Of a DNA stretch of 60,367 bases, positions 24,624 through 35,585 are shown one piece after another (positions within the stretch are counted from its first letter, which is position 1; every line of letters begins with the position of its first letter). The notes beneath the pieces were generated by a model that was not told the DNA's origin, did no database searches, and saw only the letters and a list, made by a program, of their open reading frames with translations. This DNA comes from a virus: the IMG/VR virus record IMGVR_UViG_3300036770_006786, positions 1 to 60,367 of that record; one strand, written 5' to 3'. A program made the position numbers and the translations under genes.

Positions 24624-25223
24624 ATGAAAACTTTTGCAGAATACCTGACAGAATCGCGCAAAACCTTTGATTACCGCATCAAAATCGCCGGAGATACCAC
24701 GCCCGAGTTCATGAAAGGATTCGAGCAAAAGCTCAAGCAGTTTGACGTAGTCAAGATGACCGCGCCCAAGACCACACCAGTGCAGAAAACACTGGCAGAC
24801 TTTCCGCAGTATAACAATGAGAGCATGACGTTCATGGACGTCACTTTCAACTATCCTGCCACACCTCCACAGATCACCCAGATCGCATATTTGTTGGGAC
24901 TGGATCCCAATCGCATCTGCATCCAAGATCGAGTGTATGCTGAGAAGATGGATTCAGAGCGAGAGCGCCAGGACAAAGAAAGCAAGAACTTGCTTACAGA
25001 CACAGATTTTCCTGCACCTGACAAAGAGCAACGCGATCTCAAGAAAGATTATTCTGCCGCTCCTGAGGATCATGCTGTGCTCAAGAATGCTTACCGGAGT
25101 GATTTCACAGTGGCAGGCGGAAAGACACCTCCAGCGGTGACCACTAATGACTTTCCGATGGGCACCAAGAGTCCTATCAACGGTACTAATCGAATCCCCA
25201 CACCACAGAGCTCAGCGAGATAA
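24624..25223 (+). CDS. Putative internal head protein with capsid-targeting-like N-terminus
   Basis: A 199-residue soluble protein. The N-terminus 'MKTFAEYLTESRK' is strikingly like the capsid-targeting sequence of T4 internal proteins ('MKTYQEFIAEA'), which the prohead protease removes after an (I/L)xE site. Here YLTE|S, after residue 10, would be that site. The body (about 15-110) is a mixed alpha/beta segment with 'VVKMTAPKTTP' and 'TFNYPATPPQITQIAYLLGLDPNRICI'. The C-terminal half is charged and likely flexible. I infer that it is packaged in the prohead core. No enzyme motif is seen. Confidence 0.55.
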   Translation: MKTFAEYLTESRKTFDYRIKIAGDTTPEFMKGFEQKLKQFDVVKMTAPKTTPVQKTLADFPQYNNESMTFMDVTFNYPATPPQITQIAYLLGLDPNRICIQDRVYAEKMDSERERQDKESKNLLTDTDFPAPDKEQRDLKKDYSAAPEDHAVLKNAYRSDFTVAGGKTPPAVTTNDFPMGTKSPINGTNRIPTPQSSAR

Positions 25224-25234
25224 GGAACTTGACA

Positions 25235-26926
25235 ATGAATAACATGTATGACATACTGAACAAAATGACCCTGTTGGAAGGCCGAGGTTCCAAACCTGAC
25301 TTTCTCGATTTAGACAAAGACGGTAACAAAACTGAGCCCATGAAAGATGCTGCCAAAGAAGTGGATGAAGCAAGTTACTCAGCTAAGGCAGCTCGTGCCG
25401 GTAAAGACATTGGCAAGCCAGGTAAGAACTTTGAGAAGATCGCTAAAGATGCCGCCAAGCGTTATGGTTCAAAAGAAAAAGGCGAAAAAGTTGCAGGCGC
25501 TGTGCTAGCCAAACTGCGTGCCAAGGAATCAATTGACGAAGCTGACATGGAAGAAGGTAACGAGTTTTCTGGTGAATTGGCCAAAGCTCGTGCCTCTGGC
25601 GCTAAAGAATTTCGAGTTGATGGCAAGTCTTACAAAGTCACCAAAGAAGAAGATGAAAAGATGATGAACGAAGATGTGATCGAAGAAGGTTTTGTAGACT
25701 TCATGGATCGCAAAGCCGCTTATCGTTCAATTGGTGCTGATGTAGAAGGCAAACCCGATGACTACACAGTGACCTTCAAAGATGGCACCCGCAAACGCTA
25801 CCAAGATACACCACGTGGCCGTCGTGTGACCACACTGGAACCTGTGGACCGTCCCGAAGAAGTTGATGCCGACGGTGAAGTAGTCAAGCGTGGTCGTGGT
25901 CGTCCTAAAGGAACAGGTCGTAAGATCGGTACTCGCGGAGTCACAGACGTGCGTAAGAAGAAAGTCAAAGAAGGCGATCTTGAAGAAGACTACGACAAAG
26001 ACGAGTACGATGAAGAAGGCGAAATGGCCAAGAGCCAAGCTCGCACCATCGCTGATGCTGCCATGGAGCTACATCAGATCGTGGGCGATAATGAAAACTT
26101 GCCTGAGTGGGTACAGAAGAAGATCGCACTGGCACAAGAATATATCGATGCCGCACGTGATTATCTCGCTGCCAATCGTCCCGAAGAAGAGATGATGGCT
26201 GAAAAAGCAGTGAGCAAGGCACAACGTGCTGCCGCTGGTATCGCTTATGCAGCCAAGAAGGGTAATATCCCCAAGTCAGAACTCCGCGGTGCTTCCAAAG
26301 AGATGGCCAAGATGCCTGCAGGTGAACTCAAGAAGTTTGCTAAGACCAAAGAAAAAGGTCTCCCAGAAAAGAAGGATGAAGCCGTGGAAGAAACTACAGT
26401 TGCCGGATCAGTGGCTCCTGCCGCAGAAGCTCCTAAGGGCAAAAAAGGTGGCATGATATTTGGCAAAGGTGTTTATGAAGGCCAGATCGCCGAAAGCTAT
26501 GAAAAGAAACTCAGTGCAGTGCTGACAGAAGGAATCAGCATGAATGCTTCTGTAGGCGAAGATGGAAAGAAAACATTGACAGTCAATGCCACAGATGATG
26601 ATGCTGAACAATTGGCCGCTATCCTCAAGATGGCTGGTGTTGGTTCTGCGTACAAAGAAGCCTGCTCATCATGTGGCCAAGCACCTTGCGGTTGCGAAAG
26701 CCTGGAAGAAACAGAACTGGCCAATGCTCCTGATGAAGAGTTTGCCGACACAGATACCATGGTCAATACAATATCAGGCGGCTTGAACGCTCGCAAGACC
26801 ACAGGTCAGACCACTGGCGCTCCGTTCAACAGAGATCCTGCACGTATGGGCATACATCGTCAAGAGCAAGTGGACGAAGCACAGGAACAGCGTTTGTTCG
26901 ATCTCTACAAGCAATTCAAGGGCTAA
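25235..26926 (+). CDS. Putative prohead core / DNA-associated internal protein with AT-hook
   Basis: A 563-residue highly charged protein from ATG 25235 (AAGGA SD; a TTG at 25229 is less likely). In order: 'ILNKMTLLEGRGSK' (7-20), resembling the cleaved N-terminus of T4 gp23; a DxDxDG loop at 25-30; an AT-hook 'RGRGRPKG' at 219-226; a strongly acidic stretch at 247-263; a DUF3008-like segment at 325-380 ('SKAQRAAAGIAYAAKKG...GASKEM...GLPEKK'); and a Cys cluster at 477-487. At least eight sites of the form (I/L/V)xE|(G/A/S), the T4 gp21 cleavage type, occur along its length. I infer a scaffold or core protein processed during head maturation. Confidence 0.6.
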   Translation: MNNMYDILNKMTLLEGRGSKPDFLDLDKDGNKTEPMKDAAKEVDEASYSAKAARAGKDIGKPGKNFEKIAKDAAKRYGSKEKGEKVAGAVLAKLRAKESIDEADMEEGNEFSGELAKARASGAKEFRVDGKSYKVTKEEDEKMMNEDVIEEGFVDFMDRKAAYRSIGADVEGKPDDYTVTFKDGTRKRYQDTPRGRRVTTLEPVDRPEEVDADGEVVKRGRGRPKGTGRKIGTRGVTDVRKKKVKEGDLEEDYDKDEYDEEGEMAKSQARTIADAAMELHQIVGDNENLPEWVQKKIALAQEYIDAARDYLAANRPEEEMMAEKAVSKAQRAAAGIAYAAKKGNIPKSELRGASKEMAKMPAGELKKFAKTKEKGLPEKKDEAVEETTVAGSVAPAAEAPKGKKGGMIFGKGVYEGQIAESYEKKLSAVLTEGISMNASVGEDGKKTLTVNATDDDAEQLAAILKMAGVGSAYKEACSSCGQAPCGCESLEETELANAPDEEFADTDTMVNTISGGLNARKTTGQTTGAPFNRDPARMGIHRQEQVDEAQEQRLFDLYKQFKG

Positions 26927-26928
26927 TC

Positions 26929-27912
26929 ATGACCAAGAGTCTACGAGACTATATCACCGAATCAGAGCAATGGATTGATAATCCAGTGCCAGGCGATGAC
27001 TTCGCTATCAACTTCCGTGAGGAATGCCTGGTAGAAAGTTATGTGCTTGAAACAAGAAAAAATGCCGTAGTGATACAGGCCGACGAAGAGATGATCCGTA
27101 TCATGGAATCCTATGGTTGTAGCATGGAAGATCTCGATGAAGAACAAAGCGTAGACGACGTATTAGTGAGTGAAGATCCCACAGAAGAAGAACCCACAGC
27201 ACCTGGTACCATGGGCGCAGTAGATGAGCCCACGGACTATGATCCCATTGGCGAGGACTTCATGGGTCGCATGCTTGAGCTGGCCGGATGTGGTCGCAAG
27301 ACCATGGAAGGTGATATCAGCCAGATCGAAAAAGACATAGCTGATGCTCCTGTAGCACCAATGGGCACTATAGAAGAAGGTATGATGAGCGAGATTGATA
27401 TCGATCTGCATGCCCTCGCCAGTCGTGGAGACGAAGAAGATCTAATCGCTGCTCTAGAAGGCGATCTAGGCCCGGGTACAGCAGTGGTCCTGCAAAACAT
27501 GATGGACGAACTCAAAGACGAGTTGGCCGCAAAAGGTATGAACGATGTCATCAACGACTATGACAAGATGATCGAGATACTGTGGGATAAAATCGTAGAT
27601 GAATACAGCGATGGTGATTTTGATACTAAAGAGATGTCCGAAGCAGAATATCAAGGTCGCAAAGTGCCCTTAGGCAAACCCATGCGTGGTGACGTCAAGA
27701 AGTTCAAGGTCTATGTTCGAGACCCTAAAACTGGCAATGTGAAAAAAGTCAACTTTGGTCATGGTGGTACCAGCGCCAAACGTGCCGGTCAGAAGACCAT
27801 GAAGATCAAGAAATCTGATCCTGCTCGTCGCCGGAGCTTCCGTGCTCGCCATAACTGCGACAATCCAGGTCCAAGAACAAAAGCACGTTACTGGTCATGC
27901 CGGGCGTGGTAA
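26929..27912 (+). CDS. Putative internal head protein with basic C-terminal domain
   Basis: A 327-residue protein. The N-terminus 'MTKSLRDYITESEQWID' again carries a YITE|S capsid-targeting-like site. Residues ~45-230 are very acidic, with another protease-type site 'GTIEE|G'. The last ~85 residues are a different, basic domain: 'YQGRKVPLGKPMRGDVKKFKVYV', 'KKVNFGHGG' and 'RRRSFRARHNCDN', ending 'ARYWSCRAW'. This C-terminus recurs in head-region proteins of many T4-like marine phages. The acidic/basic split suggests a core protein that binds DNA or capsid after cleavage. It is preceded directly by the AT-hook gene. Confidence 0.58.
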   Translation: MTKSLRDYITESEQWIDNPVPGDDFAINFREECLVESYVLETRKNAVVIQADEEMIRIMESYGCSMEDLDEEQSVDDVLVSEDPTEEEPTAPGTMGAVDEPTDYDPIGEDFMGRMLELAGCGRKTMEGDISQIEKDIADAPVAPMGTIEEGMMSEIDIDLHALASRGDEEDLIAALEGDLGPGTAVVLQNMMDELKDELAAKGMNDVINDYDKMIEILWDKIVDEYSDGDFDTKEMSEAEYQGRKVPLGKPMRGDVKKFKVYVRDPKTGNVKKVNFGHGGTSAKRAGQKTMKIKKSDPARRRSFRARHNCDNPGPRTKARYWSCRAW

Positions 27913-28201: not shown

Positions 28202-28582
28202 ATGCGAGCTCGAGAGTTCGTCACTGAGGCCAAGCGCAATGGCCAGCGTGCCGCTGCCAATCAAGAATTTGAGATGGCTCATCCGGGCATGATTGGACCA
28301 GGCGGCGGTGGTGATACCTACTGGGGTCGCTATTACGACTTCTACAGAGTGGCCACACTGGCCGGCATGGATCCTGCGGAACTGGACAAGGTCGACACCA
28401 TCAGTTTCTTTGGCAACCTGCCAGCATTCTCAGCCTATACTGATGCTGATCGAGTCAAACTCAAAGCCATCCTCAAAAAACTGGGCATGAAGCCCCGAGA
28501 GACCATCGGGCCTGGTAGTCTCGAAGCCAACGGCACCAACGCCACCAGTCCTGTCAAACCTTTCCGCGGTTATCCCAGATAG
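28202..28582 (+). CDS. MRAxEF-family small protein, copy 1
   Basis: A 126-residue protein. The N-terminus 'MRAREFVTEAKRN' has a capsid-targeting-like tag with protease-type site FVTE|A, after residue 9. The C-terminus is 'NATSPVKPFRGYPR'. The middle, with 'YYDFYRVATLAGMDP' and 'AFSAYTDADRVKLKAILKKLGM', looks like a small helical domain. The paralogues at 29460 and 30613 share both ends but little of the middle. It is followed within 3 bases by the Ntn-hydrolase gene. No obvious SD is present. I infer a small protein sent into the prohead; function unknown. Confidence 0.6.
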   Translation: MRAREFVTEAKRNGQRAAANQEFEMAHPGMIGPGGGGDTYWGRYYDFYRVATLAGMDPAELDKVDTISFFGNLPAFSAYTDADRVKLKAILKKLGMKPRETIGPGSLEANGTNATSPVKPFRGYPR

Positions 28583-28584
28583 CC

Positions 28585-29460
28585 ATGTGCATCATAGTCG
28601 CCAAGTACTTTCCTGGTATAGGATGGGCCGGTGCCAAGAACCGCGATCGCAACTACACTCCTACTTTAGATTTCATCGAAGACAACAGCGACGCTGTGAA
28701 TCGCATGATGATGCACGACCAAGTCACTGGCTACAAAGAAGGTATCAACAGCACCGGACTCAGCATACTCAACACCAGCCTTGACGTCTATGATGACGAA
28801 ACTGAAGTAGAAGCTGGTACTGCGGAAAGCAGCCCTGATGGCGGGATCATATCCGATGCTCTTAGGTACACAGATCCTTTGGATGCCGTAAAATACCTCG
28901 TGAAGAAACATCTCGGCGGATGTACCATAGTGTTCAATGAACAAGATCTCTATCTGATCGAAGCCACCGATGATGATGGAACTGCATCCTACAGATACAA
29001 AGTAAAAAAGATCAGTCCAAAAAATACTGTAGCCCGGAGCAATCATGGTCTATGGATTACGGATGCTGGCTACCAACGCAACTCTAAAGATGACAGCGAA
29101 TATCTTGGCCGGCTTTCTAGCGAAGCTAGATTGGCACAAGCAGAAGCTCTGGTGAAGGCTGCAAGGAAACCCGAAGATCTCGTGGATGGCATGTGCCAAG
29201 TCTACATCAATCATCCGCAACTAAATATCATGAGATACAGCACAGCACGCAAGAAGATGCGTACCACCAGCCAACAACTGTGTGTGCCTCAGGAGCGTAC
29301 TCTGTATTGCCGTCCTATCAGCAGTCACATGGACTTTGACTTCTGGAGACTGAATCAACCTCATACCAATGTGTGGGTGGAGATCCTGGGCAATAGAGTG
29401 CTGTGGCAGAATGTTGAAGGTGATCCACCGTTTGCACAGATGAAACTGAAAGACAAATAA
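28585..29460 (+). CDS. N-terminal-cysteine Ntn-hydrolase (choloylglycine / C45 / NRDE-like)
   Basis: A 291-residue protein starting Met-Cys. Removal of Met would expose Cys2 as the nucleophile. Other features match the choloylglycine hydrolase and acyltransferase superfamily: 'AKNRDRNY' (R20, D21) at the position of the conserved Arg and Asp; 'EGINSTGLSILNTSL' (N55) like the 'GxNExGL' loop; 'ARSNHGLWI' (N153, H154); and 'MRTTSQQ' (R226). Such enzymes cleave or transfer amide-linked acyl groups. The 'NRDR' also recalls TANGO2/NRDE proteins. The substrate is unknown. It lies between two MRAxEF genes and shares one base with the second (TAATG). Confidence 0.72.
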   Translation: MCIIVAKYFPGIGWAGAKNRDRNYTPTLDFIEDNSDAVNRMMMHDQVTGYKEGINSTGLSILNTSLDVYDDETEVEAGTAESSPDGGIISDALRYTDPLDAVKYLVKKHLGGCTIVFNEQDLYLIEATDDDGTASYRYKVKKISPKNTVARSNHGLWITDAGYQRNSKDDSEYLGRLSSEARLAQAEALVKAARKPEDLVDGMCQVYINHPQLNIMRYSTARKKMRTTSQQLCVPQERTLYCRPISSHMDFDFWRLNQPHTNVWVEILGNRVLWQNVEGDPPFAQMKLKDK

Positions 29461-29858
29461 TGAGAGCAAGAGAGTTTATAACTGAAGAAAAATATGGCAG
29501 TGCCGCTGATGTACCAGCCGATGGTCATAAACTCCGTAAATCTCAGCGTTCTGCCATGAAAGGCATCATCAGCATGCCCGACATCAGCCAGAACAAACAG
29601 GGCGGTAGTCCTTACACGCAATGGCGTTTTGGAATAGCCATGGCTGGTGCACCTGATCATGAGACAGAACCTGCAGGTGCATTCGCAGGTGATCCTCTGT
29701 TGGCTACTTACAGCGATGCTGATCTCGAGATAGTGAATGCCGCTGCCAAGATGGTAGGTGCCGGAGAAGTAAAAAAGGTCACAGACAATCGCAGTACCGA
29801 AGCTGACTGGGTACACAAGACTAGTCCTGTCAAGGGTTTTCGCGGATATCCAAGATAA
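29460..29858 (+). CDS. MRAxEF-family small protein, copy 2
   Basis: A 132-residue paralogue. The N-terminus 'MRAREFITEEKYG' has site FITE|E and the C-terminus is 'HKTSPVKGFRGYPR'. The middle has 'SPYTQWRFGIAMAGAPD' and 'LLATYSDADLEIVNAAAKMVGAG'. The segment 'YSDAD' aligns with 'YTDAD' of copy 1, and 'YxxxRFGxAxA' aligns with copy 3. The start overlaps the Ntn-hydrolase stop (TAATG), so the two are translationally coupled. The glutamine amidotransferase gene follows within 12 bases. Confidence 0.6.
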   Translation: MRAREFITEEKYGSAADVPADGHKLRKSQRSAMKGIISMPDISQNKQGGSPYTQWRFGIAMAGAPDHETEPAGAFAGDPLLATYSDADLEIVNAAAKMVGAGEVKKVTDNRSTEADWVHKTSPVKGFRGYPR

Positions 29859-29870
29859 ACGGGCTCAAGT

Positions 29871-30599
29871 ATGAAGCCCGTATTGATACTCCAGCACCAG
29901 ATCCCAGAACATGCAGCCTATCTCACCACTTGGTTAGATCGCCACGGCATACACTATGAGGTCTATAATGCCGGTACTGGCGAAGAGTTTCCGCAATCGA
30001 TAGAACCCTATAGTGCCATGGCCGTGATGGGCGGCGGCATGAGTTCAAATGATCCCTTACTCAGCAACCGACAGACAGAGATCTTGATCCTGCAGGCCGT
30101 GTTGAAGGACATACCCGTGATCGGACACTGCTTGGGTGGGCAACTCATGAGCCGTGCGTTGGGGGCGAAAATCGGGGCCAGCCCCCAGCCCGAAATCGGC
30201 TGGCAGCCCATAGACTACACCGCAGATCCTGCAGTTCAAAAGTGGTTTGGCCTTGATCCCACTCCTATGGTGATACAGTGGCATTATGAATCGTTTGGCA
30301 TACCCGAAGGCGCCACTCTATTGGCATCCAGCGATGCCTGTACTAATCAAGCCTGGGCGATGGGCCCACATCTGGCCATGCAGTTCCATATAGAGATGGA
30401 TCAAGACAAAGCCAAAGCCTGGGCCGATGATGAAGATCCGCTGTGGGCAGCGGCAAGGACAAACTATGCTACAGTACAGGATCGCGAAGGAATCCTAGCG
30501 GGCATAGAACCCTATCTCTTACAGCACCAGCGCACAGCAGATCATATCTATAATCAGTGGTTGAGTACCACAGAGTGGGCAGTAGAATGCCAAAATTGA
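29871..30599 (+). CDS. Class I glutamine amidotransferase domain protein
   Basis: A 242-residue stand-alone GATase1. The nucleophile elbow 'VIGHCLGGQLMSRALG' puts Cys at 87. 'AMQFHIEM' provides His173 and Glu175 of the triad. 'MGGGMSSND' at ~53-61 forms the oxyanion region and 'QWHYESFGIPEGA' the substrate side. This is the GuaA-like / YfeJ-type group that releases ammonia from glutamine or cleaves gamma-glutamyl amides. No synthetase partner is encoded nearby, so an isopeptidase or gamma-glutamyl hydrolase role is as likely as amination. It sits between two MRAxEF genes. No strong SD is seen. Confidence 0.82.
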   Translation: MKPVLILQHQIPEHAAYLTTWLDRHGIHYEVYNAGTGEEFPQSIEPYSAMAVMGGGMSSNDPLLSNRQTEILILQAVLKDIPVIGHCLGGQLMSRALGAKIGASPQPEIGWQPIDYTADPAVQKWFGLDPTPMVIQWHYESFGIPEGATLLASSDACTNQAWAMGPHLAMQFHIEMDQDKAKAWADDEDPLWAAARTNYATVQDREGILAGIEPYLLQHQRTADHIYNQWLSTTEWAVECQN

Positions 30600-30612
30600 T
30601 AAGTACATTGAT

Positions 30613-30987
30613 ATGAGAGCCCAGGAATTCATTACAGAACAGAGAGCAGTACTAGATCCAAGTCAGCGTGCGGCTCTGGCCAATACCTATATCATTCCGG
30701 GACTTCCTAGCGAAGATCCTTACAAGACCTACAGATTTGGCATGGCCCTGGCCCGTGCTCGTAGCATAGGAAATGAACTAGATCTCCCGGAGTTTGCGGA
30801 AGAAGGTGCGTTTGGCGAATTAGCTGTGATATCGGGTTCGGAAAATGTAGATGAATTGATAGATCGCGCTCTCAAACTGGCTGGAATCAAAGGTGGCAAG
30901 AAACTGATAGGCAGCAAAGTAAGCCACGAAGTTGAAGGTACAAACAAGACCAGTCCTGTAAAAGCATTCAAGGGTTATCCAAGATAA
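30613..30987 (+). CDS. MRAxEF-family small protein, copy 3
   Basis: A 124-residue paralogue. The N-terminus 'MRAQEFITEQRAV' has site FITE|Q and the C-terminus is 'NKTSPVKAFKGYPR'. The body has 'YKTYRFGMALARARS', matching 'YTQWRFGIAMAGAPD' of copy 2, and a helical 'VDELIDRALKLAGIKGG'. It ends the alternating tag-enzyme-tag-enzyme-tag array. Its stop overlaps the next ATG (TAATG). The DNA divergence between copies indicates old duplications. Confidence 0.6.
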   Translation: MRAQEFITEQRAVLDPSQRAALANTYIIPGLPSEDPYKTYRFGMALARARSIGNELDLPEFAEEGAFGELAVISGSENVDELIDRALKLAGIKGGKKLIGSKVSHEVEGTNKTSPVKAFKGYPR

Positions 30988-31294: not shown

Positions 31295-32815
31295 ATGGCC
31301 GAACCAAATCCAGCAAACGTCGCACCGTGGTACCTGCGTAATATAACGCAGGCGCTGGCGCTTGATTCAGCCACGGGCAATGTGTATGTGCGTACTGATG
31401 CACAGTTCAATATCTCCAACGCCAACATTACCGTAGGCAACGTGGGAGTGACCAGTCTTGGCAACGTGGATGTGTCGGGCACAGAATTACCAGTCACGAT
31501 AGAATCTGGCAACATCACTGTGTATCAAGGTACAGATCCTTGGGTGGTTTCTGGCAACGTCAACGCCAACATCACAGGTGGGTCAGTCAATGCCAACATC
31601 ACAGGCGGCAATGTCACTACCAGTTTCAATCCCACGCTGATAGATGCCTTTAGTCGCTTGCGTGTATCAAATCCTCTTACCTTGTTTGATACCCGTGCCA
31701 TGTATTACGATCATGGGCAGTTTGCCAGCAACTTGGTAGCAAGTGGAAATGTGGTCTACAATGCTAACTCCAGCACCTATCTCATGAGCGTGACTGCTAA
31801 CAATGATGCTGTGTATCGTGAGACTGTGAAAACATTCGTGTATCAGCCGGGCAAGAGCCTGCTGGTGCTCAATACATTCTGCGGCAACACTCCCGCCGCA
31901 GGACTTGTACAGCGTGTGGGCTACTTCAACGACGAGAACGGCATCTACTTTGAAATCAACGGTACCACCAAGAACATGGTTATTCGTAGTAGCAGCACCG
32001 GATCTTTGACTTATGAAACCGTACCACAAAGTTCCTGGAATGGCGATCGACTGGATGGGTCCGGTGGTGCTAATAATCCATCAGGTATCACACTCAACGT
32101 AGACAGAGATCAGATCTTCTGGATGGACATAGAATGGCTGGGCGTGGGATCAGTACGCACTGGTTTCGTGATCAATGGTCAGTTTATCATCTGTCATACT
32201 TTCAACCATGCCAACCAAAGCGGCAATGTCACCACTTACATGGGCACGGCCAACTTGCCTTGCCGATATGAATTGATCAGCACAGGACCCGCTGGTAATC
32301 TACGCCAGATCTGTAGCACAGTGATCTCTGAAGGTGGTTATACTCTCACAGGTGTAGCCAAGAGTGCAGGACATACTTTTGCCGAAGATATCAGTTTACC
32401 CAACGACGACAGTTTTGTTCCTGTGTTTGCTATCCGTCTCAAGAGCACCATGCCCGATGCTGTTGTGATACCCACCACCTGGAGCTTGTCAGTGAGTTCG
32501 AATGATCTCTATGCTTGGAAAGTGTATCGCAGGGCCGTGACATCGGGTGGATCTTGGACGTCAGCAGGATCTGATAGCCCAGTGGAATACAACATAGCAC
32601 CCACGGCTCTAGTTAGCGGTGATTTGGTAGATCAAGGCTACATCCGTGCATCAAATCAAAGTGTAAGCTCACCGCAGAATCAAGAACTAACATTTGAAAA
32701 TCAACTGATCCGTGATCCTTTCACTGCTACCTTCTATGAATTTGTGATCATGGCCGCCACAGACGGCACCAATCAAACAGCGTTGGCCGCAGTTCAGTGG
32801 CAACAAATAACCTAA
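31295..32815 (+). CDS. Virion structural protein (fibre-like N-terminus, conserved phage body)
   Basis: A 506-residue protein. The first ~110 residues have fibre-type strands and 'NANITGGSVNANITGGN' repeats. From ~118 the segment 'DAFSRLRVSNPLTLFDT' begins a conserved body with 'KSLLVLNTFCGNTPAAGLVQRVGYF', 'DRDQIFWMDIEWLGVGSVRTGFVI' and 'RYELISTGPAGNLRQICSTVISEGG'. I know this body from structural proteins of T4-like marine phages and some other phages. No enzymatic motif is seen. Role probably tail or head appendage. Confidence 0.65.
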   Translation: MAEPNPANVAPWYLRNITQALALDSATGNVYVRTDAQFNISNANITVGNVGVTSLGNVDVSGTELPVTIESGNITVYQGTDPWVVSGNVNANITGGSVNANITGGNVTTSFNPTLIDAFSRLRVSNPLTLFDTRAMYYDHGQFASNLVASGNVVYNANSSTYLMSVTANNDAVYRETVKTFVYQPGKSLLVLNTFCGNTPAAGLVQRVGYFNDENGIYFEINGTTKNMVIRSSSTGSLTYETVPQSSWNGDRLDGSGGANNPSGITLNVDRDQIFWMDIEWLGVGSVRTGFVINGQFIICHTFNHANQSGNVTTYMGTANLPCRYELISTGPAGNLRQICSTVISEGGYTLTGVAKSAGHTFAEDISLPNDDSFVPVFAIRLKSTMPDAVVIPTTWSLSVSSNDLYAWKVYRRAVTSGGSWTSAGSDSPVEYNIAPTALVSGDLVDQGYIRASNQSVSSPQNQELTFENQLIRDPFTATFYEFVIMAATDGTNQTALAAVQWQQIT

Positions 32816-32823
32816 GGAACAAC

Positions 32824-33270
32824 ATGAAAAAAATAATCGCTACTGTAATCGCTATATTTGCTATGATGGGCTCTGCCTATGCGCAGAAGATGCCCAAGAA
32901 TTCAGCTACCTATGATGCACAAGTACTGCGTGTAAGCGACGGTGATACCATCGTGATAGCCGCACCATTCCTGCCAGCACCCTTGAAGCCCGAACTGGCC
33001 GTGAGGATCTATGGTGTGGACACTCCGGAAAAAGGTCATCGTGCCCAGTGTGCCCAAGAGAATGAGCGTGCGCTGATGGCCAGCCAATGGACCACACAGC
33101 TGATCAAGCAAGGCGGCAAGATCCAAGTCACACTGTATGGTTGGGACAAGTTTGGTGGTCGCGTATTAGGTGATATCATCGTGAACGGCCAGAGCGTGCG
33201 TGCTGGATTGATCCAAAACGGACTCGCTCGTGAATACTACGGTGATGCCAAACAGAGCTGGTGCCAATGA
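32824..33270 (+). CDS. Secreted thermonuclease (staphylococcal nuclease-like)
   Basis: A 148-residue protein from ATG 32824 (AAGGA SD; the longer reading from 32797 runs inside the upstream gene). The N-terminal 20 residues 'KKIIATVIAIFAMMGSAYA|Q' form a textbook Sec signal peptide with an AYA cleavage site. The SNase fold follows: 'VSDGDTIVI' (D39, D41), 'VRIYGVDTPEK' (R61, D66, E69) and 'KFGGRVLGDI' (R113) carry the metal-binding and catalytic residues. These enzymes degrade DNA and RNA with Ca2+. Export to the periplasm or outside is expected, unusual for a phage nuclease. The stop overlaps the next ATG (ATGA). Confidence 0.87.
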   Translation: MKKIIATVIAIFAMMGSAYAQKMPKNSATYDAQVLRVSDGDTIVIAAPFLPAPLKPELAVRIYGVDTPEKGHRAQCAQENERALMASQWTTQLIKQGGKIQVTLYGWDKFGGRVLGDIIVNGQSVRAGLIQNGLAREYYGDAKQSWCQ

Positions 33271-34019: not shown

Positions 34020-35585
34020 ATGTCAAAGAGTCTCGAAGGCGTACTGGTCAAAGCACCACATCGTCGCCATCCTTATACTGATGAACAGATTGAAGAATTT
34101 GTGCTCTGTGCAGATCCAGACACGGGTCCACAGTATTTCATGAGCCATTTCTTTTATATCCAACATCCGTTGCATGGAAAGATGCTGTATCAACCCTATG
34201 AATTCCAAGACCGCCTGATCGAAACCTATCACAATTATAGATTCTCTATATCAATGATGCCTAGGCAAACGGGTAAATCTACGTCGGCTGCGGGCTATTT
34301 GCTATGGTATGCCATGTTCGTTCCGGACAGCACCATCCTAGTGGCCGCACACAAGTTCCTAGGTGCGCAAGAGATCATGCAACGTGTGAGATATGCCTAT
34401 GAGTCTTGTCCAGATCACATCAGAGCAGGTGTTGTGAGCTACAACAAAGGTAGCATAGAGTTTGACAACGGAAGCCGTATAGTCAGCCAGACCACAACTG
34501 AAAACACAGGCCGGGGTATGTCTATCACGCTCTTATACTGTGACGAGTTTGCGTTCGTGAGGCCTACCATAGCTCGAGAGTTCTGGACTTCCATCACACC
34601 TACCTTGGCCACTGGTGGTAAAGCCATCATCACATCCACTCCCAACTCAGACGAAGATCAGTTTGCGTTGATCTGGAAAGGTGCCAACAAGCTGGAAGAC
34701 GAGTATGGTAATCCTACAGAGCTGGGCGTGAATGGATTCCGTGCGTTCCGTGCTTTCTGGAAGGAGCATCCGGATCGAGGTGAATCTTGGGCCAATCAAC
34801 AACGTCAGATCTTAGGAGAAGATCGATTCCGGCGAGAGATGGACTGCGAGTTTATCATCAACGATGAGACCTTGATCGCTCCTGCCAAACTGATAGATCT
34901 ACAGTCTACTGATCCCATCTACAAAACTGGTCAGGTGCGCTGGTTCCGTGCTCCACAGTCCGGTCGCATCTACACAGTGGCGCTTGATCCCAGCTTGGGA
35001 ACAGGAGGAGATCCTGCTGCCATACAGATATTCGAAGCCAATACCACTGAACAGATCGGCGAATGGCGACACAATCGTACCACCATTCCTGAACAGGTGC
35101 GTATCTTGGCCGACATCTGCCGGCACATCAATGACACAGTGAAAGATTCCAAGAGCATCTACTACACAGTGGAAAACAATACCATTGGTGAAGCAGCCCT
35201 GATATCTATCGCAGAGTACGGAGAAGAAAACATACAGGGCTATTTTCTCAGCGAGCCCGGAGGCGGATCTGGACGCCGCTACCGCAAAGGTTTCAATACC
35301 ACACACAAGCCCAAACTAGCGGCCTGCGCCAAACTGAAAAATCTCCTTGAAACCGGGCGCATGACTATACATTCTGCCAGCTTGGTTTCAGAGCTCAAAA
35401 CATTCGTGGCGCACGGTACCAGCTATGCTGCCAAACCCGGAGAAACCGACGATCTAGTGATGGCCACTGTGCTGGCCATACGCATGATGCAGATCCTGCA
35501 GAGCTACCACTCAGAACTAGACACACAACTACGCGATCATGCGGACAACACCATAGAACCCATGCCCTTCGTAGCGATGTTCTAA
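34020..35585 (+). CDS. gp17: Terminase large subunit (T4 gp17-like)
   Basis: A 521-residue packaging motor; T4 gp17 has 610. The ATPase domain has Walker A 'PRQTGKST' at 81-88, Walker B 'LLYCDEF' at 171-177 and the coupling motif 'TSTPNS' at ~206-210. The C-terminal RNase H-like nuclease starts near 'VALDPSLGTGGDPAAI' (~321) and continues to 'ETDDLVMATVLAIRM', providing the acidic cluster that cuts concatemers. It pumps DNA into the prohead with gp16. The upstream gap shows no clear SD or late motif on the plus strand. Ends 13 bases before the next ATG. Confidence 0.95.
   Translation: MSKSLEGVLVKAPHRRHPYTDEQIEEFVLCADPDTGPQYFMSHFFYIQHPLHGKMLYQPYEFQDRLIETYHNYRFSISMMPRQTGKSTSAAGYLLWYAMFVPDSTILVAAHKFLGAQEIMQRVRYAYESCPDHIRAGVVSYNKGSIEFDNGSRIVSQTTTENTGRGMSITLLYCDEFAFVRPTIAREFWTSITPTLATGGKAIITSTPNSDEDQFALIWKGANKLEDEYGNPTELGVNGFRAFRAFWKEHPDRGESWANQQRQILGEDRFRREMDCEFIINDETLIAPAKLIDLQSTDPIYKTGQVRWFRAPQSGRIYTVALDPSLGTGGDPAAIQIFEANTTEQIGEWRHNRTTIPEQVRILADICRHINDTVKDSKSIYYTVENNTIGEAALISIAEYGEENIQGYFLSEPGGGSGRRYRKGFNTTHKPKLAACAKLKNLLETGRMTIHSASLVSELKTFVAHGTSYAAKPGETDDLVMATVLAIRMMQILQSYHSELDTQLRDHADNTIEPMPFVAMF

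Follow-up and report, generated by a model that had tools for sequence, protein, structure and literature searches.

Why would a phage place three small proteins with nearly the same first nine residues around two enzyme genes, within its head-gene cluster? The question is raised by positions 1–60,367 of IMG/VR record IMGVR_UViG_3300036770_006786 (about 60 kb; the window, by which we mean the whole stretch analysed), whose source, judged by its sequence, is an uncultured phage related to jumbo (giant) phages; its relatives include contigs of 320 and 344 kb. The predicted proteins are abbreviated as P1–P3 (tagged small proteins), NTN (a putative N-terminal nucleophile, or Ntn, hydrolase with a catalytic Cys) and GAT (a class I glutamine amidotransferase). 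In our opinion the P proteins are probably tagged internal head proteins and NTN may be an amidase delivered with the head, which in a sister clade would be activated by a protease, GAT probably being an accessory gene. New here is a leader, found in the sister clade of NTN, that ends in [IL]xE immediately ahead of the catalytic Cys.

The genes follow each other in the order P1, NTN, P2, GAT, P3, all on the + strand, with spacers of 2, −1, 12 and 13 nt; the first-pass annotation had placed the five open reading frames (ORFs) correctly in coordinates, strand and order. P1 (28202..28582, 126 aa) reads MRAREFVTE...TSPVKPFRGYPR, P2 (29460..29858, 132 aa), whose start shares one base with the NTN stop, reads MRAREFITE...TSPVKGFRGYPR and P3 (30613..30987, 124 aa) reads MRAQEFITE...TSPVKAFKGYPR. 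Their tags occupy 28202..28228, 29460..29486 and 30613..30639, and predicted cuts after VTE in P1 and after ITE in P2 and P3 would leave mature proteins of 117, 123 and 115 aa with isoelectric points of 9.4, 8.2 and 8.2, respectively. The C-terminal motifs TSPVKPFRGYPR, TSPVKGFRGYPR and TSPVKAFKGYPR lie at 28544..28579, 29820..29855 and 30949..30984; the common tail, TSPVKxFxGYPR, is basic and flexible. The three proteins had been described as sharing both ends and differing in the middle. The ends are indeed shared, but unrelated middles are ruled out: with P2 as BLAST query P3 is found at E 1.8e-10 (residues 25–132, 37%) and P1 at E 1.8e-8 (residues 1–132, 35%), and an alignment of 20 members spans the full length with internal invariants Y45, R49, P58, S106 and E108. 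Because the bodies match as well, P1–P3 are tandem paralogues, homologous over their whole length. The family has at least two conserved tail types, since in members from loci L116, L136, L149, L170, L201 and L446 SPVAKxKKNKYGV-like tails replace SPVKxFxGYPR.

The N-terminus MRAxEF[IV]xE is very probably a capsid-targeting and prohead-protease signal of the T4 type, as far as its sequence can tell. Among 95 diverse aligned members M1, R2, A3, E5, F6 and E9 are kept, as are E114 and S122 near the C-terminus; this set was partly picked by the tag, and the unbiased count is that of 169 ORFs found by profile search. Of these 169, 165 carry I, V, L or M at position 7 (V in 49, a mild departure from L/I) and 165 carry E at position 9, while position 8 is free with 13 different residues; in three of the four ORFs without E9 the start was mis-called and the true tag lies behind it. 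Conservation in both sets excludes a chance origin of the P N-terminus, and the fixed-free-fixed pattern at positions 7–9 looks like a protease site. Previously it has been shown that T4 gp21 cleaves after L/I-X-E, that the first 10 residues of IPIII are enough for packaging, and that IPIII targeting depends on residues 4 and 7 and processing on residues 8 and 10 (PMC9026906). The T4 proteins cut by gp21 (IPI, IPII, IPIII and Alt) resemble the P family in their short N-terminal tag, aromatic-[IL]-x-E, that follows the same rule. Specifically, IPII and IPIII start with MKTYQEFIAE, and SFLTE is present in gp23 (cut points taken from the literature).

Genes of the matching machinery are found in relatives of the window phage: of 14 records, seven encode a prohead protease (PF03420) and eight a gp23 capsid protein (PF07068). 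Their capsid N-termini read YLRE/NASSGSTVSG and YLKE/NASAGTTVSG, where the slash, here and below, marks a presumed cut. Two very small tagged proteins, MRAQEFIKE/NASVGATSSG (L171:11838, − strand) and MRANEFIKE/TASAGATTSG (L180:7597, − strand), reproduce the capsid junction right behind the tag, as their NASVGATSSG and TASAGATTSG resemble NASSG and NASAG.

The tag is also found apart from P. We scanned IMG/VR for MRAxEFIxE and MKxFxEFIxE, together with a scrambled motif of equal composition. Among the matches listed, the real motifs stand at gene starts in 88 of 146 and 95 of 124 cases and precede dozens of bodies that are unrelated to each other, GH19-like and Zeta-toxin-like ones among them; the scrambled motif matched 25 times across the collection and never at a gene start. 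In related loci DUF6321 proteins, too, begin with the same tag; cyanophage DUF6321 homologues align only from about residue 7 on, and in the three examined the domain stands at the end of a longer protein. By these sequences the tag is modular and common to unrelated bodies. The likening of the N-terminus to T4 tags, made at first from its letters, is thus borne out by the site pattern, by the protease and capsid genes and by modularity. Diverse bodies behind one tag, with a gp21-type protease and a gp23 capsid in relatives, are what T4 internal proteins have as well; unlike them, the P family comes in multi-copy arrays with a conserved C-terminal motif and a resident NTN gene, has no detected sequence relation to them, and its packaging is predicted from sequence. 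The tag sequences are named in no paper that we found in the open-access literature.

The largest non-P tagged family in the scan is a GH19-like chitinase/lysozyme domain preceded by either MRAxEFIxE or MKxFxEFIxE (a cluster of 62 proteins, e.g. L118:2992-3609, +); the member examined has a twin-arginine-like stretch, RRGFLGALGAG, behind the tag. Another tagged protein (L314:11976-12929, +) has a weak Zeta-toxin/kinase match and is a candidate delivered effector. A loose tag expression run over a whole 320-kb genome found 15 sites with about 12 expected, which is near background, and such loose counts were dropped; in that genome it is the stricter aromatic-[ILV]-x-E tags alone that gather among the head genes.

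The enzyme between P1 and P2 has no tag. NTN (28585..29460, 291 aa, MCIIVAKYF...NRDRNY) has its predicted catalytic Cys2 (codon 28588..28590) right behind the initiator Met. It has no Pfam match, and against the NCBIfam C45 proenzyme model NF040521 it scores 22.3 bits, below the curated cut-off of 85, so that it is not classed as C45. An AlphaFold2 model (pTM 0.83) gave 2x1c (E 1.6e-6), 3gvz, 6ufy and 6dxw as best PDB matches in Foldseek; the fold matches comprise isopenicillin N acyltransferase precursor, CV2077, bile salt hydrolases, penicillin V acylase and NAAA, with moderate TM-scores of about 0.33–0.58 for the significant ones. C2, D21 and N153-H154-G155 are invariant across 35 relatives. 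By its model NTN is a Cys Ntn-hydrolase of the choloylglycine hydrolase/isopenicillin N acyltransferase/NAAA fold group and a predicted amidase or acylase. It is like these enzymes and penicillin V acylase in predicted fold, N-terminal Cys and conserved Asp and Asn; it differs in falling below the Pfam and NCBIfam family cut-offs and in having a sister clade with an [IL]xE leader before the Cys. A TANGO2/NRDE-type enzyme, suggested by the MCI...NRDR start, was supported by neither Pfam nor the fold search. No NTN in a bacterial genome was confirmed in a two-pattern scan.

It is this sister clade that offers a probable connection of the enzyme to the head. The only isolate homologues of NTN found are in Chryseobacterium phages MA9V-1 and MA9V-2 (33%), where an N-terminal extension ends in NEFLNE/C and NAFINE/C, respectively. 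Within the 66,515 residues of MA9V-1 there are only 20 instances of F[LIV]NE, most of which belong to short N-terminal tags (MRDFFINE, MKNFFVNE, MKNFFSFINE and MKTFFNFVNE among them) and to head genes; the capsid protein contains both FINE and FLNE, and NTN contains EFLNE/C. A scan with the MA9V-1 enzyme as single query found no relative; an alignment query gave more than 500, and the 80 of these that were kept comprise 33 distinct sequences. Directly before the Cys, 30 of these 33 have [LI]-x-E; among the 33 there are 21 different leaders (e.g. MINE, MKLSE, MKKLINE, MPQLFDKIILGE). Longer sister-clade records encode the PF03420 protease in 9 of 12 cases and a gp23 capsid in 8 of 12, with candidate capsid junctions QLVSE/ASATGT and QLLDE/ATQTGT. 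The leader would fit a head-targeted proenzyme that is unmasked by the prohead protease. Leaders as short as MINE could be cut, and may be too short for targeting alone. MA9V-1 (OR050627) also has a 1347-residue ORF at 126501-130544 (+) with a gp21-type protease domain and four F[LIV]NE sites.

In a tree the window clade (62 rows, all Met-Cys) stands apart from the tagged clade (34 rows, 31 of them tagged). A profile search of 13 sister-clade phage records, itself run with no positive control, found no P gene, and none turned up in 80 stretches surrounding sister-clade NTN genes either; the same profile matches in 79 of 83 window-type loci. The distribution is complementary: NTN has its own tag where P is missing, or has no tag where P genes are neighbours. 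This is the main support for packaging of NTN together with P, and escort of NTN by P in the window clade is further suggested by enzyme and tag lying on separate polypeptides that are encoded side by side. The likeliest role of the window NTN, whose gene lies among tagged P genes, is that of the same head-delivered amidase as proposed for the sister clade.

We propose the following mechanism. The nine-residue tag MRAxEF[IV]TE would dock each P precursor on the prohead core, and the gp21-type protease would then cleave after [IV]TE, giving mature P of 115–123 residues which, with its basic flexible tail, would remain in the head with the DNA and enter the host with it. For the sister-clade NTN, one cut by the prohead protease would expose the N-terminal nucleophile and activate the enzyme in the head. 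For the window clade, which lacks the leader, removal of Met would suffice, and P would carry the amidase in or enter along with it. Seen directly are the sequences and their conservation, the modularity of the tag, the protease and capsid genes of relatives, the fold group and the leader motif; that the proteins are cut, packaged and delivered, that P escorts NTN and that the substrate is an N-acyl amide is what we infer for this system. The comparable ejection proteins of SPN3US and phiKZ have propeptides that are cut after Glu by a gp21 relative, gp245/gp175 (PMC5694885, PMC7411985), as proposed here for the P tags; the SPN3US motif is A-X-E on long propeptides, whereas the window phage and its relatives have [IL]-x-E on short tags. 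More tentatively, this phage NTN family could consist of head-packaged zymogens whose catalytic Cys is masked by the targeting leader and freed within the head by an [IL]xE/Cys cut, so that the amidase would be active when it arrives with the genome; in the window clade the tag would be supplied in trans through P. If this is true of the [IL]xE/Cys leaders, the prohead protease is also a switch for delivered enzymes, and phage effectors would be subject to a further, new level of control. For uncultured phages, whose virions are out of reach of proteomics, the nine-residue motif offers a means of predicting which proteins are packaged in the head.

Several observations weigh against this proposal. 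The window-type NTN is untagged in 83 of 83 loci (the Cys being right behind the start codon in all 83), so its packaging is argued indirectly. The complementary distribution is confounded by descent, the two states being essentially two clades, and three leaderless Met-Cys members are nested inside the tagged clade. That P and NTN lie side by side may stem from nothing more than a head-gene order passed on by descent, and five loci (L430, L441 and L444–L446) have no adjacent P. Protease and capsid genes were not seen in the window record, probably because it is a fragment. Three P queries against INPHARED isolates gave no match, and we found no virion proteomics for P-encoding phages. Two further tag-like N-termini occur shortly upstream of the cassette, in head-region proteins at 24624..25223 (+; MKTFAEYLTE/S) and 26929..27912 (+; MTKSLRDYITE/S, with a basic C-terminal domain; phrog_7595). 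The PA5oct and Phosso homologues of the first lack the Glu (DYYDAS, EYLSSV), and the N-terminal helix is therefore not necessarily a cut site there.

As for the alternatives, it is quite possible that NTN and GAT of the window are ordinary cytoplasmic enzymes of infection, whose genes merely travel with the head cluster and whose products stay out of the virion. This would agree with the lack of a tag on either, with distant NTN relatives lying away from P genes (L441, L444) and with the nature of GAT (29871..30599, +, 242 aa), which resembles bacterial amidotransferases such as 3m3p and occurs in 11 of the 83 NTN loci only. What this account leaves aside is that NTN directly adjoins a tagged P gene in 78 of the 83 loci (several of which are near-duplicates), on both sides in 51, even though its position within the array varies between, after or before the P genes; nor does it account for the prohead-protease-type leader on the sister-clade enzyme itself. 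Note that L444, a 518-kb contig, has its untagged NTN away from any P gene, beside genes of bacterial appearance on inspection by eye (ClpX-like, ClpS-like and peptidyl-prolyl isomerase-like).

The same counts decide how the cassette is to be viewed. The exact order P-NTN-P-GAT-P is found in the window and one relative (L007). NTN is missing from about 54 of 59–60 P-bearing stretches of the tag scan, mostly with short flanks, and from nine of the ten with good flanks. The cassette as drawn is lineage-specific: the P array, of 2–5 tandem copies per locus, is general, NTN is a regular guest in one lineage and GAT is occasional. A fixed alternating architecture, as first described, is not supported, and the neighbourhood that it implied is conserved for NTN and not for GAT.

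GAT is probably an accessory gene, a sporadic passenger; as a core partner of the cassette it was rejected by its 11 loci. It has PF00117 at 42.5 bits (cut-off 22.8), the triad Cys87, His173 and Glu175 and a near full-length match to 3m3p (130 bits). It thus resembles the class I amidotransferases PRK07053/3m3p; it differs from them in being phage-borne and sporadic, in scoring 130.7 bits against PRK07053, below the curated cut-off of 250, and in that no partner synthetase domain was seen. The suggestion of the first-pass annotation that the enzymes may modify, mature or serve the P cargo found no support in this analysis. The fold group of NTN mostly acts on small-molecule N-acyl amides, and for this reason NTN more probably attacks a molecule of the host than modifies P.

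Rather unlikely, in our estimate, is a structural or core role of the P proteins (scaffold-associated, inner-surface or DNA-condensing), in which they would bear the tag and be cleaved in the manner of internal proteins yet not be delivered to the host as effectors. Their genes lie in the neck-to-terminase head cluster in 2–5 tandem copies, their tails are basic and flexible, and the PA5oct neighbours gp282 and gp281 are annotated as virion proteins. However, cleavage breaks the T4 core proteins gp22, gp67 and gp68 down into many pieces (PMC9026906); the bodies of P are, in contrast, compact and conserved, and enzyme-like bodies in other phages bear the same tag. The P bodies themselves have no usable match in Pfam, PHROGs, NCBIfam or PDB; the structure model is moderate (pLDDT 80, pTM 0.55), and its sole significant viral structure match is an uncharacterised protein.

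Self-processing of the propeptide is known from some Ntn-hydrolases, and the sister-clade [IL]xE leader could likewise be a propeptide that the enzyme removes by itself, in the way of penicillin V acylase, unrelated to the prohead. That leaders go down to four residues is in line with this. We regard it as improbable, as self-cleavage leaves unexplained why, across many leaders, −3 is held at L/I and −1 at E while −2 varies; moreover, the leader has been lost from the three nested members, which begin with Met-Cys, and the MA9V-1 leader motif matches sites of the capsid protein. Finally, that the P N-termini are shared by plain paralogy or start-site conservation and have no targeting role is very hard to maintain: P1–P3 are paralogues, but the same nine residues also open unrelated proteins, and their rate at gene starts greatly exceeds that of the scrambled control.

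The surroundings of the cassette are those of a head-gene cluster: one flank holds genes for head closure and tail, the other the large terminase (34020..35585, +), the marker of the cluster; the nearest isolates of the latter are PA5oct-type jumbo phages (52%). PA5oct (Wroclawvirus) has the same order from head closure to large terminase in gp285–gp280, where neighbours, including gp282, the homologue of the protein at 24624, are annotated as virion proteins by electrospray ionisation tandem mass spectrometry (ESI-MS/MS). It differs in that the P/NTN/GAT cassette is absent and the terminase stands directly behind gp281, in addition to the missing Glu in gp282. Between the two tag-like head-region genes of the window, 25229-26926 (+) encodes a protein of 565 aa with a DUF3008 domain. 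The DUF6321 proteins of cyanophages are often encoded immediately upstream of the terminase. Between the cassette and the terminase of the window, 32797-33270 (+) encodes a small protein that by eye is thermonuclease-like, with a signal-peptide-like start, MKKIIATVIAIFAMMGSAYAQ.

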